A DNA stretch of 61,822 nt from a virus: the IMG/VR virus record IMGVR_UViG_3300036832_000756, positions 1-61,822 of that record; one strand, 5' to 3'. Made by a program: the position numbers and the translations under genes. Below, piece after piece: positions 36,327-44,100 of this stretch (position 1 is its first letter; each line of letters begins with the position of its first letter). Under the pieces are notes generated by a model. It ran no database searches. It had not been told where the DNA came from and saw nothing but the letters and a program-made list of their open reading frames with translations.

Positions 36327-37036
36327 ACGATGGACTCTCGGCTTTCGGTGTGGACCACGGCGGGGTCTCCAAGCGCGACGACGAGCGCGCCAAGCACTAC
36401 GGCCGGATGGCGGCGGCCACCGGCACCCTGGGTGGTACGGCCGCCGCCGTCGGTGCCGGAGCCGGCGCGATCGGGCTGGCCGAGTCCAAGGGCCACGACC
36501 CGGTGGGGTTCCTGCCGCAGCGCTCGGCACGGCACAAGCCGGCCAGCCACGCAGTGAAGATGCGGGTGCTCAAGCCGCTGTCTCGCGACCACGGCAGGCA
36601 GGCCGCCGTCCTGGGCGGGCTGAGCGCGGGCACCCTGGCCATCTCCGGTGCCTACAAGCACAAGCAGAACAAGGCACTGGCCAAACGCGACCTGGGGCGC
36701 AAGGCGACCGACGCCGGGCTGGCCGCGGGCACGACCGGGGCGGCCGGAGCCACCGGGTACTACGGGGTGCGCCAGGGCAAGGTGTACGCCCAGGGTGCCT
36801 ACGCCGGTGGCAAGACGGCCTCCTACGCCCATCACGACATCCGCAGCGCCAAGCAGGGCCGGTACAAGGCCACCGCCGCCCATCTGGCGCACCTGAAGAG
36901 CACCCGGAACACCGGTCTGCGGATGGCGGCCACCAAGGGCGCGGGCGCGGTCGGCACCGGGGTCGCCGGTGCTGCCGGTGCCGCGGGCCTGTTCGAGCTG
37001 GGCCGGAACGCAGCGAGGAAACGGAAGCCGTCGTGA
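36323..37036 (+). CDS. SAFG-tag protein 5, 237 aa
   Basis: Begins MNDGLSAFGVDHGGVSKRDD, ATGA-coupled to the adaptor gene. It has three hydrophobic Ala/Gly segments (TGTLGGTAAAVGAGAGAIGL, AAVLGGLSAGTLAISGAYKH, AAGTTGAAGATGYYGVRQGK) and a fourth near the end (GAGAVGTGVAGAAGAAGLFE), separated by basic His/Lys stretches. It is the largest N-terminally tagged member. The multiple hydrophobic helices could form a pore or an internal core after ejection. Confidence 0.68.
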   Translation: MNDGLSAFGVDHGGVSKRDDERAKHYGRMAAATGTLGGTAAAVGAGAGAIGLAESKGHDPVGFLPQRSARHKPASHAVKMRVLKPLSRDHGRQAAVLGGLSAGTLAISGAYKHKQNKALAKRDLGRKATDAGLAAGTTGAAGATGYYGVRQGKVYAQGAYAGGKTASYAHHDIRSAKQGRYKATAAHLAHLKSTRNTGLRMAATKGAGAVGTGVAGAAGAAGLFELGRNAARKRKPS

Positions 37037-37479
37037 GCGAGCTGAACGACCTGCTGGCCCTGCTCCCGGACAACAGCAGCGGGGAGATCAGCGCTGCCGA
37101 CCTGCGCACCATCGTCACCGAGCTGTACAACGACGCGAACTCGGTCTTCAACCAGTACGCCTACAAGTGGGACTCCGGCACCACTCCGGCCTCCGGCAAG
37201 CTCAACCTGGCGGCGTGGACTGCCGACACCGACACCACCCTGTACATCAACGATGTCAGCGCCGGCAGCATCGCGCTTCCCTTCGGGTTGGTGGACACCG
37301 ACCCGAAGTTCACGCTGGCCCGTGACGACGGCACCGCCAAGGCCAGCGGCACGGTGATCGGCCCTTCGGTGCCACACAGCGGCTACCACGAGGTGCCTGT
37401 GCATCTGGACACCACCACCGGGACCTCCCCGACCAACAACACTCCGCTCACGCTCTCACTGATGGTGACGTTGACATGA
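37033..37479 (+). CDS. Small virion protein, 148 aa
   Basis: GTG start in a GTGA overlap. The N-terminal helix pair LNDLLALLPDNSSGEISAAD plus LRTIVTELYNDANSVF is seen in small phage proteins near connectors or fibres. The C-terminal part is beta-rich (TTLYINDVSAGSIALPFG, GYHEVPVHLDTTTG). It may be a collar or head-decoration protein. Confidence 0.55.
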   Translation: MSELNDLLALLPDNSSGEISAADLRTIVTELYNDANSVFNQYAYKWDSGTTPASGKLNLAAWTADTDTTLYINDVSAGSIALPFGLVDTDPKFTLARDDGTAKASGTVIGPSVPHSGYHEVPVHLDTTTGTSPTNNTPLTLSLMVTLT

Positions 37480-37955
37480 GCGAGTTCAGCACCGACTTCG
37501 CCCCGGCCTTCGCCGCGGTCCCCCTGTCGTCTGCTGCGACCCACCGCTCGCCGATCACTGCCGAGGCCCGTGCTTATGTCAGGTCACGGGCCACCCTGGT
37601 GATGGAGCACACCTGCCAGATCACCCGTGGAGCCACCCCGGAGGGCTACGACGAGAACACCCTGGTCTTCACCGCCGCGGGCATCGCCGAGCTGGTCTAC
37701 GAGGGACCGTGCCGGATCTGGGAGCTGTCCTCGGCCCAGTCGCTGCTGGTCGGCGAGGCGGAGATCTACCAACAGCCCACCCAGATGTCCATCCCTTGGG
37801 ACGAATCGGCGCTCATCAGGCGATACGACCAGGTGCTGGTCACCACTGCGCCGGAGGACTCCCAGCTGGTCGGGGAGCGGTTCGAGATCCAGACGATCGC
37901 CAAGGGAGGCGAGCTCCGGGCCTCTCGGCGCTTCGAGATCACCGGGGTGATGTGA
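37476..37955 (+). CDS. Head-tail stopper-like protein (DUF6093-type)
   Basis: A 159-aa protein with EHTCQITRGATPEGYDENTL and VYEGPCRIWELSSAQSLLVG, then YQQPTQMSIPWD and QVLVTTAPEDSQLVGERFEI. This beta-barrel pattern matches stopper proteins placed after the adaptor in actinophages. It would close the connector after packaging. ATGA overlap with the preceding gene. Confidence 0.68.
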   Translation: MSEFSTDFAPAFAAVPLSSAATHRSPITAEARAYVRSRATLVMEHTCQITRGATPEGYDENTLVFTAAGIAELVYEGPCRIWELSSAQSLLVGEAEIYQQPTQMSIPWDESALIRRYDQVLVTTAPEDSQLVGERFEIQTIAKGGELRASRRFEITGVM

Positions 37956-38257
37956 TGCTCTCCGCCGATGGACGTTCCGCCTTCGGTGTGGAGCACGGTG
38001 AGGTCTCCAAGGCGTTCCGGCGGCTCGGTCCCCAGCTACGGGCGACCCTGAAGGACAGCAAGGGCGTCAACATGGACGAACGAGCCCGACACAACTACGC
38101 GATGTTCCGTCAGGTGGCCGGAAACCTCGGTCGAGGCAGCCGTGGTAAGCCTGACCAGGCTGCCATCGAGCTACAGCGACAGTTCAAGGGGGCTGCACAC
38201 GCATCGGTGACCGCGGCTGGAAACATCAGCAGACGGAAGGGCCGGTACCTGCCATGA
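37955..38257 (+). CDS. SAFG-tag protein 6, 100 aa
   Basis: Begins MLSADGRSAFGVEHGEVSKA, TGATG-coupled to the stopper gene. Unlike other members it lacks long Ala/Gly-rich helices. The body is basic and helical (FRRLGPQLRATLKDSKGVNM, RHNYAMFRQVAGNLGRGSRG). The tag is closest to the family consensus. It lies between stopper and tail-joining genes. Confidence 0.65.
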   Translation: MLSADGRSAFGVEHGEVSKAFRRLGPQLRATLKDSKGVNMDERARHNYAMFRQVAGNLGRGSRGKPDQAAIELQRQFKGAAHASVTAAGNISRRKGRYLP

Positions 38258-38712
38258 CTGCCGAGGCCTCGGCCGACATCTCCCGGCTGTCCGAGGCGCT
38301 GCGCCAGACCGCCGCCCAGTCCCAGACCACCACCATGGACGTGCTGGTGCGGTCCGCGGACTTCATCAAGACCGAGATGCAGGCCAAGGCCCCGGTGCGG
38401 ACCGGCAACCTGCGGAACTCGATCTACGTCAAGGTGGAGACCGACCGGGTGACCATCGGCCCGAACGAGACCTCGGCCCCGTACGCCGGCTACGTGGAGT
38501 TCGGGACCAAGCCGCACGTGATCGTGCCCAAGAAGCCCGGCGGCGTCCTGGTCTTCCACGTGGGCGGCAGGAAGGTCTTCACCAGGCGGGTCCACCACCC
38601 CGGCTCCCGGCCGCATCCGTACGTGATGCCGGCCTTCCAGTCCTGGGTGGACAGCCTCGGCACGATGGCAGCAGAGGCCAACGTGAAGGTGTTCAACGAC
38701 CATGCCAGCTGA
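38254..38712 (+). CDS. HK97 gp10-like head-tail/tail completion protein
   Basis: A 152-aa protein with the diagnostic MQAKAPVRTGNLRNSIYVKV, APYAGYVEFGTKPHVIVPKK and HPGSRPHPYVMPAFQSWVDS. These are the conserved blocks of the HK97_gp10_like family. It functions at the head-tail or tail-neck junction. ATGA overlap with SAFG-tag protein 6. Confidence 0.85.
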   Translation: MTAEASADISRLSEALRQTAAQSQTTTMDVLVRSADFIKTEMQAKAPVRTGNLRNSIYVKVETDRVTIGPNETSAPYAGYVEFGTKPHVIVPKKPGGVLVFHVGGRKVFTRRVHHPGSRPHPYVMPAFQSWVDSLGTMAAEANVKVFNDHAS

Positions 38713-39172
38713 TGCGATCTCCCGCGGACCGATCACCGACCAGCTGCTCGTGCAGCTGGCGAGTGAGGGGTTCCCGGTGGGCGACGACGCCGCTCCGACC
38801 ATCCCGTTCGGATGGCAGGGCGAGCCGAACGACCCGGGCAAGACCTTCACGCCCTGGCTCACCCTGACCCCGAGCGCGGGCATCCCGCAGAGCCCGGCCG
38901 GGCCGCTGGCCAACACCTACGCGGACTGGAGGCTCGGCTACCTGGTCGCCTACGCGGGGGTCAGCCGGAAGCAGACCGAGGCGCTGGCGGACCGGATGCG
39001 GCACAACCTGATCTACCTCGAGCGGGAGCTCATCGTCACCCCGACCGGGGGCTGGAAGGTGCAGAAGGTCAGCTGCAACAACATCGGCAACACCATCCGG
39101 ATGGGCTCTGCCTACCCGGACTACTTCACACAGTCGGACACGTTCGAGGTATGGGTCACGAAGGGAAGCTGA
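38702..39172 (+). CDS. Tail terminator protein
   Basis: A 156-aa protein following the gp10-like gene, with the tail terminator pattern: an N-terminal helix (ISRGPITDQLLVQLASEGFP), an internal YADWRLGYLVAYAGVSRKQT helix and strands, and a C-terminal DTFEVWVTKGS. Position before the tail tube gene supports the call. It overlaps the preceding gene by 11 bp. Confidence 0.68.
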   Translation: MPADAISRGPITDQLLVQLASEGFPVGDDAAPTIPFGWQGEPNDPGKTFTPWLTLTPSAGIPQSPAGPLANTYADWRLGYLVAYAGVSRKQTEALADRMRHNLIYLERELIVTPTGGWKVQKVSCNNIGNTIRMGSAYPDYFTQSDTFEVWVTKGS

Positions 39173-39173
39173 G

Positions 39174-39347
39174 ATGCCGTACGGAAAGCAGATCAAGATC
39201 ACCAAGGACGACGACGAGGCCACCATCGAGGCGTCCTCGTGGAAGGTCTACGAGCGCAATGGCTGGACGCGCACAGATGATGGAGGTAGTGAAGCAGGAC
39301 CGCCTGCAGCTGCTCCGCAGTCCGCGGCACCGACCCAGGAAGGCTGA
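39174..39347 (+). CDS. Small hypothetical protein, 57 aa
   Basis: ATG at 39174, one base after the terminator gene stop. Starts PYGKQIKITKDDDEATIEAS and ends in an Ala/Pro-rich tail. The N-terminal 30 residues read as a small strand-helix. Third codon positions are G/C-rich. The sequence directly after its stop (GGAAGGCTGACCG) serves as the ribosome site of the endonuclease gene. Confidence 0.55.
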   Translation: MPYGKQIKITKDDDEATIEASSWKVYERNGWTRTDDGGSEAGPPAAAPQSAAPTQEG

Positions 39348-39350
39348 CCG

Positions 39351-39374
39351 ATGGCACGCATCATCCCGAACGAG
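39351..39374 (+). repeat. Duplicated gene start, copy 1 (endonuclease); copy 2 at 39842-39865
   Basis: ATGGCACGCATCATCCCGAA and ATGGCACGCATCATTCCCAA open the endonuclease gene and the major tail gene. Three differences in 24 bases, all at third codon positions. The match ends abruptly after codon eight. It marks the boundary of the inserted gene. Confidence 0.85.
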
Positions 39375-39839
39375 GATGAGCGCAGCGTGCGTCAGCGGGA
39401 GCGCTACGCCAGCGATCCGGAGTACCGAGCGATGCACCTGGCTTCCTCCCAGGCATGGCGAGACGCCAACCAGGAGCGGAAGCGGGCGTACAACGCCGAG
39501 TGGTACCAGAAGAATCGGGAGAAGCTCCTCGCTGACCCGAGCCGGAGACGAGCACAGCGCGCACACCACCTGAGGAAGAACTACGGCATCACCATCGAGC
39601 AGTACGAGGAGATGCTAGAGGCGCAGGGTGGTACCTGCGTCTGCGGAGCCACTGAACCTGGTGGTGGGGGCCGGTACCAGAACTTCCTGGTCGATCACGA
39701 TCACGAGACGGGGGAGGTCCGAGGCCTCCTCTGCTACACCTGCAACACGGCTGTCGGCCTGGTTCAGGACAATCCGGACACGTTGCGTGCACTGGCTGAC
39801 TACCTGTCCGCCCACGCAGAGATGGAGAGGGTGAGCTAG
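39351..39839 (+). CDS. Endonuclease VII-like HNH endonuclease (probable homing insertion)
   Basis: A 162-aa protein with the Endonuclease_7/HNH pattern: C96-x-C98, VDHDH (115-118) with ETGEVRG, and LLCYTCN with C128 and C131. N-terminal residues 10-75 are basic (RQRERYASDPEYRAMHLASS). The first eight residues, MARIIPNE, are identical to those of the major tail gene that follows. At the DNA level 21 of the first 24 bases match. This suggests insertion just after the tail gene start, with capture of its start region. Codon usage is slightly less G/C-biased than that of its neighbours. Confidence 0.83.
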   Translation: MARIIPNEDERSVRQRERYASDPEYRAMHLASSQAWRDANQERKRAYNAEWYQKNREKLLADPSRRRAQRAHHLRKNYGITIEQYEEMLEAQGGTCVCGATEPGGGGRYQNFLVDHDHETGEVRGLLCYTCNTAVGLVQDNPDTLRALADYLSAHAEMERVS

Positions 39840-39841
39840 TC

Positions 39842-40321
39842 ATGGCACGCATCATTCCCAACGAAAACACCTGGATCGGGTTCACCCCTGCCAGCATCAC
39901 CGACCCGGCTGCGCCCACGGCGGCCCAGGTGGCGGCGGCGATCGACCTGACCGGCTGGTGCATCAGCCTGAACGCCTCGGCTCGGGGCAACACGGTGCCC
40001 ACCCCGGCCTTCGACAGCCTGTTCGAGACCAGCACGGCCGGCACCTCGGCGGCGACCTTCGATGCGGACTTCTACCGCGACGACGAGGACGACACCGCCT
40101 GGGAGACCCTGCCGCGCGCCACTCGCGGGTTCTTCATCATCGCCCGGTTCGGCGGCACCGGCACCGGGAACCTGCCGATCGCCGGCGACGACTGCGAGGT
40201 CTGGCCGGTGATGATCACTTCGCGAACGATGGCCAACATGAGCTCGAACACCGTCTTGACCTTCACCGCGTCCTGCGCGGTCATGGTGGAACCCGCTGAG
40301 GATGCCGTCGTTGCCGCCTGA
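39842..40321 (+). CDS. Major tail (tube) protein
   Basis: A 159-aa beta-rich protein placed between the tail terminator and the frameshifted chaperones, where the tube gene lies. IDLTGWCISLNASARGNTVP with TPAFDSLFETSTAGTSAAT then FDADFYRDDEDDTAWETLPR and GDDCEVWPVMITSRTMANMS and VLTFTASCAVMVEPAED is the usual tube-subunit pattern. The ribosome site now lies inside the 3' end of the inserted endonuclease gene (GAGAGGGTGAGC). Confidence 0.83.
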   Translation: MARIIPNENTWIGFTPASITDPAAPTAAQVAAAIDLTGWCISLNASARGNTVPTPAFDSLFETSTAGTSAATFDADFYRDDEDDTAWETLPRATRGFFIIARFGGTGTGNLPIAGDDCEVWPVMITSRTMANMSSNTVLTFTASCAVMVEPAEDAVVAA

Positions 40322-40328
40322 CGGCTCT

Positions 40329-40350
40329 GACCAGGGCTAGCATCTGGTCC
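40329..40350 (+). promoter_or_regulatory. Inverted repeat with -10-like box before the tail chaperone gene
   Basis: GACCAG (40329-40334) and CTGGTC (40344-40349) form a 6-bp inverted repeat. TAGCAT between them (40338-40343) matches TANNNT and lies 13 bases before the ATG. There is no Shine-Dalgarno sequence, so a leaderless transcript is possible. No good -35 was seen at standard spacing. Confidence 0.35.
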
Positions 40351-40785
40351 ATGCCAAGCACTACAGCGAAGACCACCGAGGCTCGCCAGAAGCAGTCCGC
40401 CGACGACAAGCGCGCCACCATCGACGCGCTGATCAACAAGCCCCGCAACACCCACGAGTTCTCCCTGTTCCTCTCCGACGGCAACGGCGGGTCGAACGAG
40501 GTGACGCTGAAGTACCAGGCGATCGGGATGCGGGCCTACGACAAGCTGGTGTCCAAGCACCCGCCCAAGGCCGACCAGCGAGCGGAGGGGTCATCCTTCG
40601 ACATCGACTCCTTCGCCCCGGCCCTGATCAGTGCCTGTGCCGTGGAGCCGGAGATCAGCGTGGCCGAGGCCAAGGCCATCTGGGACTCCGACGACTGGTC
40701 GCGCGGGGACGTGATGGTGCTGTTCCGCAACGCCGTCGAGCTGAACAACCGGGGGCTGGACATCCCTTTCAACGAACGCGACTGA
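40351..40785 (+). CDS. Tail assembly chaperone G
   Basis: A 144-aa acidic helical protein ahead of the tape measure gene. KYQAIGMRAYDKLVSKHPPK and SFAPALISACAVEPEISVAE with AKAIWDSDDWSRGDVMVLFR are typical of gpG-type chaperones of actinophages. It coats the tape measure protein during tail assembly. About 7 codons before its stop lies a slippery heptamer that gives the longer GT protein. Confidence 0.83.
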   Translation: MPSTTAKTTEARQKQSADDKRATIDALINKPRNTHEFSLFLSDGNGGSNEVTLKYQAIGMRAYDKLVSKHPPKADQRAEGSSFDIDSFAPALISACAVEPEISVAEAKAIWDSDDWSRGDVMVLFRNAVELNNRGLDIPFNERD

Positions 40786-41138
40786 GGAGGGACCCCAACT
40801 TCTACATGGAGATGGCGTACTGCCACGAACACGCCATCCCGCACAGCAAGTTCCTGAAGTGGGACCCCGAGGACCGGGCCAAGACCCTGGCCTTCTCGAT
40901 GGAGTCGGCGATCCGCTGTCAGATGTGCGGCACCGCCGAGTGGGAGTGGGCCGAGAACAAGTTCGCCTTCACCGCGGTCGAGGAGTTCTGCCAGGGCTGC
41001 TACCAGAAGAGCGTGTTCAGTGACCAGCAAGGCTCGTCACTGCCCGGGACCAATGTCAAACTGATCCCGACCACTCCACAGCTCACTGCGCAGATGGCCG
41101 CCAAGGCGAGGAAGCGCGCCAGGCTGAGGATGGACTAG
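40351..41138 (+). CDS. Tail assembly chaperone GT (-1 frameshift product)
   Basis: Translation as join(40351-40770, 40770-41138) gives 262 aa. After the slip the sequence reads QRTRLRRDPNFYMEMAYCHE, then HAIPHSKFLKWDPEDRAKTL, the standard T-domain opening of actinophages. The T domain has two CxxC pairs (RCQMCGTAEWEW and FCQGCYQ), so a zinc ribbon is likely. It bridges the tube subunit and the tape measure protein. The -1 ORF lacks an own ribosome site near ATG 40806, which supports synthesis by frameshifting. Confidence 0.85.
40764..40770 (+). other. Slippery heptamer CCCTTTC for -1 frameshifting
   Basis: C CCT TTC in the zero frame fits X XXY YYZ exactly (CCC, TTT, C). Slipping back one base continues in the -1 frame as CAA CGA ACG CGA CTG AGG, with no stop until 41138. 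This is the conserved programmed frameshift of tail assembly chaperones. Confidence 0.88.
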
Positions 41139-41144
41139 GACGAG

Positions 41145-44100
41145 ATGACCAGCCAGCCCGTAGAGGCCAATGTCGTACTGACCGCTGACAACAGCGGCTA
41201 CGACCAGGCGATGGGTCAGTCCGCCACCGCCACCGACCGGGTGTCGGCCTCGGTGGACGCGCTGGGCAACAAGATCACGAAGATGACCAAGGTCGCCGGC
41301 AAGTCCCTGATCGGGATCTCGGTGGCCGACACCGGCATGATCGTCGGGGCCACCAAGGCCTGGAACGACTACGAGAAGCAGATGGCCCGGCTGAACTCCC
41401 AGTCGGCCGTGCTCTCGCGCACCCAGGACCAGCAGACCAAGGTGATGAAGGACTACACCGGCGCGGTGAAGAACCTGCGCTCGGAGTTCGGCACCTCCAC
41501 CTCCGAGGCAGCCAAGCTGGTGGAGACCCTCTCCAAGGTCACCAGCGTCAAGCAGAGCCGGGACCTGCAGGACCTCTCCCAGGTCTTCATCAAGATGGCG
41601 GCGGCCACCGGGGAGAGCTCGGAGGGACTGGCCAGCTCGCTGACCAACCTGCAGAAGATCATGGGCACGCCGATCAACGCCCAGCAGAGCAAGAAGTACG
41701 CCGACACCTTCACCTACCTGGCTGCCCAGACCAACTCCAGCGCCCAGGGCCTGATGGACTTCACCGCCCAGCTGGCCCCGGTGGCCAAGTCGCTGGGCAT
41801 GAACACCCAGCAGGTGGCCGGGTTCGCCACCGCCTTCACCAAGGCCGGTGCGGACGGCGGGGCCGCGGCCACGGCGTTCACCAAGGTCACCGGCGACCTG
41901 CTGAAGTCGCTGCAGTCCGGGTCCCCGGAGCTGGCCCACTACGCCAACATCGTCGGGACCACCCAGGGCAACTTCCGGAAGCTGGCCAAGGACAACTCGG
42001 CCGAGGCCGTGGTCGAGATCTTCGAGTCGCTGGCTCGGCACAGCAAGTCCGCCACCACCGAGCTGAACCGGCTGGGCCTGGACGGACCACGCACCATCCG
42101 CCAGATCACCCAGATGATGAACGCCCCGGGCGGGATCCGGGCGTCCATGGGAATGGCCGAGGACCCGCGGGCCAAGGGGGCCACCGACCGCGGCTACCAG
42201 GCCACGATGGCCGGGCTGAGCGACGAGTTCGACAAGCTGCAGGAGGACCTCAAGCAGACCGCCGAGGCCTTCGCCACCTATCTCGGCCCGGCCCTCGAGC
42301 TGTTCCTGAAGGGGATGGAGAAGGCCGCCTCGATCGTGCAGTCGATCACCGAGGGGCCGATGGGCAAGTTCCTCCAGGTGGTCTCGGGGTTCCTGGCCCC
42401 GCTGGCCGGCGCGGCCGGGCTGCTGCTGCTGTTCGCGGGGGCCCTGGTCAAAGTGGCCAGCGCCTTCACCCTGCTCCGCTCCTCGGCCGCCTACGGCCTG
42501 CGGGAGGGCTTCGGCGGTGCGGCCGGGCTGACCAAGACCGGGGTGGACGCCGAGGGCCGGAGCATGTTCGGTCCGATGGGCGGAGGTGCCCTGGGCAAGC
42601 GGGGCGCGCAGCTGGCCGAGGGCGGCACCTGGATCCAGCGCGGGCTGTACACCGGCGGTGCGTTCGCCGGGCAGGGGCTGGGTGCGTTCCGGCGCGGGGG
42701 TGCGGTCCCGGAGAGCTGGTACCAGACCCGGGAGGCGCTGAGCTCGAAGATCCCGTGGACCGAGCAGTACGCACGCCCGACCGAGGGCACCATGCGCGGC
42801 CCGCTGTCCTACCTGGCCGGCGGGGTAGCCAAGGGCATCGACGAGTTCGTGACCCCGACCTTCGACGCGATGCGCTACGCCGACCCCACCAAGCGGCGGC
42901 AGTGGGTGGACCGGGAGGCTCCCTGGGCCAAGCTGTCGCAGCGGGCGGACCTGGTGCGGTCGATGGGCCGGACCGGGCTGGTCGAAGGTCAGATGGACAC
43001 GGTGCGCTCCGAGATCGCCAAGGTCCACGAGGACCCGTTGATGACCAACGAGGCCCGGGAGGCGCGGCTCCAGGAGCTGCGCACCATCCGCTCGGAGACC
43101 CAGCAGCGGGTGACCTCGGCCAGGGCCCAGGAGTCCGCCGACCGCGAGGTGATCGCCAGCCAACAGCTGCTGACCCGGGAGAACGAGACCGCGGCGGCCA
43201 GTACCAAGGGGCTCGGTGCATCACTGGGGAAGCTGGGAGCCAACGTCGGCGGCGGGATCCTGGGTGCCGGCCGAGCCGGGCTCGGTGCCGCCTGGCGGTC
43301 CGGGATGGTCGGCCAGGGCGTGGCCATGGGCGCGACGATCGCCGGCGGGATGACCGGCTCGAACGCGCTGATGATGGGTGGCACCGGCGCGATGATCGGC
43401 TCGATGCTCCCGGGCCCAGGGACCGTGATCGGGGCCGGGGTCGGCACTGCCGCCGGCCTGGCGATGGACGCGGCGCACGCCAACGACTCGGTGACCGAGT
43501 CGATCAAGAACCTGAACGACCAGGCCGACGAGGCCTCCCGGACCGGCTCCGGCCTGTCCGACCTGAACCAGGCCACCCTGGACTCCCAGAAGGGCCTGGA
43601 CGACTGGTCCAAGAGCATCGGCGGGTCCGGCAGCAAGCTGGACTACTGGTTCGGCGCGCCGAAGCTCTCCCAGATCACCAAGGCCCCCGGCGCGGTGAAG
43701 AACCTGGTCGAGGGGGTCCTCGGCAGCTCGGACGTGGAGGAGGCCCAGAAGAAGCAGGACGAGGCCGTCTCGAAGGCCAAGAACACCGAGGCCGCGATCC
43801 GGGACCTGGCCAAGGCCAGCGGGGTCAAGCTGACCGGATCCGACACCAACCAGCGCGCCCAGCTGGAGCAGTTCATGTCCAACCGGGGGCAGGCGGCACT
43901 GGGCGCGGCGAACATCGAGCTGCCGGACTTCATCGCGGCCCGGAAGGAAGGCGGCGCGCACTACCAGCAGATGATCCAGCAGGCCACGGCCCCGGGCCAG
44001 GCCAACGGGATGTGGGACCGGCTGCGCACCACCGCAGCCGGCTCGGCGATGCTGGACGACAAGACCGCCCGGCAGTCGATCCGGTACCAGGGCGACGTGG

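Follow-up and report, generated by a model that had tools for sequence, protein, structure and literature searches.

An Endonuclease VII-type nuclease gene is inserted at the junction between a small conserved gene and the gene for the major tail protein of a tailed phage, and the nuclease and tail genes begin with the same eight codons. Relatives may have or lack the nuclease, which sits at precisely this tail junction. The phenomenon is real, explained in kind and unusual in detail. It resembles the takeover of the native tail start by a selfish nuclease, with a slightly re-spelled start left to serve the tail gene. Its best overall explanation, to which we give about even odds, is insertion of a homing-type nuclease through repair from a donor phage.

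The window analyzed is a 61,822-base IMG/VR virus record with a G+C content of 67.4%. It encodes a terminase, a portal and a 2031-codon tape-measure gene, and its source is a tailed phage. At positions 40-2757 the phage encodes a DNA polymerase III alpha of bacterial type that has a PHP domain. All features of the junction are on the plus strand. The small upstream gene (39174-39347, 57 aa) ends ...AAGGCTGA, and a Shine-Dalgarno-like AGGAAGG (39337-39343) stands 7 nt before the start of the nuclease gene (39351-39839, 162 aa), which begins MARIIPNEDERSVRQRERYA. The first eight codons of this ORF (39351-39374), in frame with the nuclease body, are the upstream copy of the start encoding MARIIPNE and resemble the tail starts of relatives lacking the insert. 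A second Shine-Dalgarno-like motif, GGAGAGGG (39824-39831), lies inside the nuclease ORF, at its 3' end, and is predicted to serve the tail gene, from whose start it is spaced 10 nt. The tail gene (39842-40321, 159 aa) begins MARIIPNENTWIGF and opens with the downstream copy of the start (39842-39865), which differs synonymously (ATT CCC AAC GAA). Profile matches to PF25595 Phage_TTP_16 (Pfam, E = 7.8e-23) and phrog_2491 identify its product as a tail tube or major tail protein. The initial annotation had assigned the first motif, next to the upstream gene, to the nuclease and the second to the tail gene, and both motifs are present as it described. The GC3 of the nuclease gene (0.80) is below that of its neighbors (0.91-0.93), which is consistent with acquisition.

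The first 24 bases of the nuclease gene (ATGGCACGCATCATCCCGAACGAG) and of the tail gene (ATGGCACGCATCATTCCCAACGAA) are identical at 21 positions. All three differences are synonymous, and the likeness stops at codon 9 (GAT versus AAC), exactly as first noted. The tail-tube family conserves MARIIPNE as its N-terminus. When 112 endonuclease ORFs from the retrieved loci were compared with the starts of their neighboring genes, the window pair matched at 18 of the 21 bases after the start codon; the next best match was 14/21, and none of the 111 other ORFs exceeded it. The duplicated start is thus beyond chance. A DNA pattern scan located the start pattern in 66 other IMG/VR stretches, with one copy in each, and none of the 66 has a second nuclease joined to the pattern. 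No account of a phage nuclease fused to the start of its neighbor was found in the part of the literature covered. One retrieved locus carries tandem paralogous tail-tube genes (L209:2504 and L209:3001), each starting MARLIPNENTWVGF.

Tail loci were collected with the tail protein (65 loci), by profile search and by DNA pattern scan (2 loci), and 85 with a readable start were examined, the window included. No nuclease precedes the tail gene in 81 of these, and in most of the 81 the small gene runs directly into the tail gene. In five empty loci (L012, L014, L015, L030 and L049) the AGGAAGG motif stands before the tail ATG, and the junction reads ...AAGGAAGGCTGACCG-ATGGCC... or very nearly so. 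This is the uninterrupted junction that had been predicted for relatives without the insert; neither a different upstream junction nor a nuclease in all relatives, either of which had been named as contrary evidence, was found. The AGGAAGG motif would be the ribosome site of the tail gene in the empty relatives and that of the nuclease in the window.

Four of the 85 loci are occupied. Besides the window, L067 has an Endonuclease VII-type gene at the same junction, 52% identical to that of the window over 160 residues, and L005 and L036 have an unrelated HNH-type nuclease there (phrog_4160 and phrog_1271) whose two versions are 71% identical to each other. The duplicated start is absent from all three of these other occupied loci. 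In a tail-gene tree built with the first eight codons removed, each of the four occupied phages sits on a different branch and empty phages lie in between, which makes the junction before the tail gene a recurrent nuclease insertion point. The tally of 4 occupied and 81 empty loci makes the nuclease an optional gene whose position between conserved genes is fixed, and the pattern of two unrelated nuclease families at one site fits free-standing homing endonucleases. The HNH-type nucleases (L005:4431-4952 and L036:4434-4952) carry two N-terminal zinc-knuckle-like repeats and have no Pfam match at the cut-off. The tail gene behind the L036 insert (L036:5001) starts with TTG, and its spelling is strongly altered (GCT AGG ATA ATC CCC).

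Across 608 kb of DNA from related tail modules, all matches to both nuclease families lie directly before the tail gene. Because L005 and L036 were discovered through the tail gene, and L067 independently through both genes, this clustering is not a by-product of searching for nucleases near tail genes. A search for the window nuclease in 20 related contigs was negative; these contigs may be fragments, and the search had no positive control. A DNA-level search with positions 37000-41200 gave no match in 50,697 phage records, a protein search of phage records with the tail protein gave none either, and a scan of genome contigs returned one distant tail gene.

The two copies of the start were compared with the tail starts of the empty relatives. 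At all three differing sites the upstream copy has the majority base of these relatives (C in 70/79, G in 56/79 and G in 65/79) and the downstream copy has a minority base, and the upstream copy is the nearer one for 53 of the 63 distinct empty tail genes. The downstream haplotype ATT CCC AAC GAA also occurs in L005, where the site is occupied by the HNH-type nuclease. Synonymous divergence between the tail gene of the window and those of the empty phages is 0.64-0.66 in codons 2-8, 0.30-0.33 over the gene and near zero in codons 9-14. The three main-clade occupied tail genes rank as the top 3 of 40 for excess synonymous divergence in codons 2-8 (nominal p = 1e-4, for a codon range picked after viewing the data and with window and L005 related). 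L003, L041 and L032 are close behind, and the L067 tail gene is unremarkable. This recoding signal in the occupied tail genes is suggestive only. The simplest reading of the comparison is that the native start stayed beside its ribosome site and became joined to the nuclease, and that a different start serves the tail gene. The initial annotation had proposed a homing endonuclease that captured the start of its target. The homing part of that proposal is favored by the optional insertion and by the use of one site by two unrelated nuclease families; the capture is probably to be inverted, with the upstream copy native and the downstream copy re-spelled.

The favored route starts with a free-standing homing-type gene of the Endonuclease VII fold entering the junction of the small gene and the tail-tube gene. 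It would come from a related phage that, like L067, has the nuclease immediately ahead of the tail gene. The recipient tail start would break and be repaired from this donor, with the left crossover within a short match, ATCCCGAA, that the recipient tail start shares with the original start of the nuclease, and with the right crossover in the tail gene. The nuclease would then be driven by the native start and ribosome site of the recipient, and the tail gene by a donor-type start. L067 provides such a match. A Shine-Dalgarno motif abuts the ATG of its nuclease, so the more likely start is the TTG nine bases on. From there the protein reads MAIPKDE (MAIPKDELNARRRERYA versus MARIIPNEDERSVRQRERYA in the window), and this nuclease start and the tail starts have the eight bases ATCCCGAA in common in the same reading frame. 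Repair with crossovers in ATCCCGAA and in the tail gene would give exactly the observed structure. The 52%-identical L067 nuclease lacks the duplicated start, which indicates that the duplication is not part of the normal anatomy of the element.

Two observations weigh on the donor. The L067 tail start differs from the downstream copy of the window, which counts against the donor route, and no donor with both the nuclease and the re-spelled start was found among the loci examined. The tail gene closest to that of the window from codon 9 onward belongs to L012, an empty phage, and a clean donor tract is therefore not visible. A tract from an L005-like phage was considered and set aside, since the shift in tail similarity toward L005 is weak. 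The possibility that the MARIIPNE start is an old capture common to the window and L067 nucleases was likewise rejected, because its third-codon bases fit present-day tail starts too well for nucleases that are 52% identical.

In the donor-repair route the window nuclease would presumably cleave the tail gene. The junction at codon 8/9 splits the putative target in the upstream copy and the re-spelling synonymously alters it in the downstream copy, so that neither need be cut. Loss of the nuclease gene would be disfavored by the tail ribosome site that it contains, although the 24-bp repeats could still recombine and excise it cleanly. A stronger, 'home-and-rescue' version has the nuclease cut the conserved tail start, insert at the cut, take the native target's first eight codons as its own start and keep the essential tail gene functional by bringing along a synonymously re-spelled copy of those codons that it cannot cut. 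We regard this version as improbable.

The family assignment of the nuclease is clear. Residues 72-153 match PF02945 Endonuclease_7 (Pfam, E = 1.2e-23), the protein matches phrog_2914 endonuclease VII (E = 1.6e-32), and it matches Hpy99I and T4 Endonuclease VII by sequence; an NCBIfam search returned no names. By the Endonuclease VII motif definition in PMC6083498, the DHDH core, the downstream Arg and the C-terminal CX2C followed by Asn are all present (VDHDHETGEVRGLLCYTCN). The first zinc pair of the family is CX2-4C (PMC6083498), whereas the N-terminal pair of the window nuclease is CXC (TCVCG). It is encoded by TGC GTC TGC at 39636-39644 and is one codon shorter than the CAVC of L067 (KCAVCG). 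Other inspected relatives mostly have CX2C or similar spacing, and a DNA scan detected no other Endonuclease VII gene with CXC in the same sequence context. Endonuclease VII homology thus stands, an active zinc site appears less assured, and this copy may be impaired or inactive owing to the CXC. Judged by its placement and sequence, the window nuclease behaves like a candidate member of the free-standing homing endonucleases.

The unusual zinc pair leads to one rival reading, a dead remnant: a once-mobile nuclease, inactivated by the one-residue loss in its zinc knuckle, would be retained only for the tail ribosome site in its 3' end. The singular CXC and the inactivity of the T4 C23S mutant (PMC6083498) fit this reading, which is compatible with either insertion route. 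The ORF is nevertheless intact with its remaining catalytic residues (DHDH, R and CX2C-N), and T4 C26S is active (PMC6083498), so one cysteine may be dispensable. With one T4 mutant inactive and the other active, the window nuclease may be active or not, and we consider the remnant possible but doubtful.

Local duplication is also unlikely. Here the nuclease would insert immediately ahead of the tail gene, whose first 24 bp would be duplicated in the process, either as a target-site duplication at a staggered break or because the tail start converted that of the nuclease; the copies would drift apart later. Both variants are near the view originally put forward. The copies differ by only three synonymous bases, and both have GCA CGC at codons 2-3, a spelling matched among close relatives only by L010, which speaks for this reading. 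However, all three differences are downstream minority states common to L005, and drift alone would have to recreate the same haplotype. Synonymous divergence of the tail gene is also roughly two-fold higher in codons 2-8 than elsewhere, and the other occupied loci have no duplication.

Quite improbable is an ordinary acquired, non-homing Endonuclease VII-type gene lying between tail genes, a resolvase or packaging helper like T4 gp49 (a resolvase) from a family common in phages (1,779 records matched), with the common codons serving as a good translation start and a new leader accounting for the re-spelled tail start through a changed initiation context, because selection on initiation would not yield eight identical codons at 21/24 bases, the gene is present at one junction only, where an unrelated nuclease also occurs, and it was not found in the 20 related contigs, possibly fragmentary and lacking a positive control.

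The closest known systems each have part of the arrangement. F-CphI of cyanophage S-PM2 is a free-standing homing endonuclease with the Endonuclease VII motif (PMC6083498), which establishes that proteins with this motif can be free-standing homing endonucleases. Both it and the window nuclease are optional free-standing phage genes with the catalytic motif in the C-terminal half, beside a target gene that is presumed in the window. Unlike the window, in which no intron was seen, S-PM2 owes its protection to a group I intron in psbA; cutting by F-CphI is measured, whereas that by the window nuclease is predicted. The zinc pair of the window nuclease is CXC. The Seg and Mob genes of T4 and its relatives (PMC2988022) likewise encode nucleases, are optional and lie between conserved phage genes. 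They draw on upstream signals of the host operon, and some carry the expression signals of the downstream gene inside the nuclease, which favors retention. They differ in being GIY-YIG or HNH enzymes that usually cleave hundreds of bases or more away, and a start-codon fusion is not described for them in the passages of PMC2988022 consulted. Different nuclease classes occupy equivalent positions in other phages (PMC10448857), and distinct nuclease clusters occur at one site (PMC12724721).

In the fungal mitochondrial mORF hybrids of atp6, atp9, cox2 and nad3, including Allomyces atp6, the insert combines a nuclease with a foreign and diverged gene end, which takes the place of the native one (PMC3630166). 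As in these hybrids, an endonuclease ORF lies in a host gene, one end of which is present twice around the nuclease (24-bp repeat at 39351 and 39842). The mORF hybrids are mitochondrial, involve LAGLIDADG or GIY-YIG nucleases and duplicate the 3' end, replacing the C-terminus; the window has a phage, an Endonuclease VII-type enzyme and the 5' end. The upstream copy in the window may be a displaced native end; it matches the empty phages, the downstream copy is unusual, and no donor was found among the loci examined. By analogy, the arrangement can be viewed as a mirror image of the mORF hybrids, at the gene 5' end and in a phage. The insertion of mobE in nrdA of phage Aeh1, discussed in PMC2988022, also places a nuclease gene in an essential phage gene that stays usable, but there nrdA is split into two polypeptides, whereas the tail gene of the window is whole thanks to its second start.

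The window shows how a free-standing nuclease, with neither intron nor intein, can enter the coding frame of a structural gene that is essential. The starts would be divided, with the native one going to the nuclease and a replacement to the tail gene. Since the tail-gene start has been reached by two unrelated nuclease families, it is a natural test case for two questions: do such insertions track one conserved target, and are carriers protected by synonymous re-spelling?
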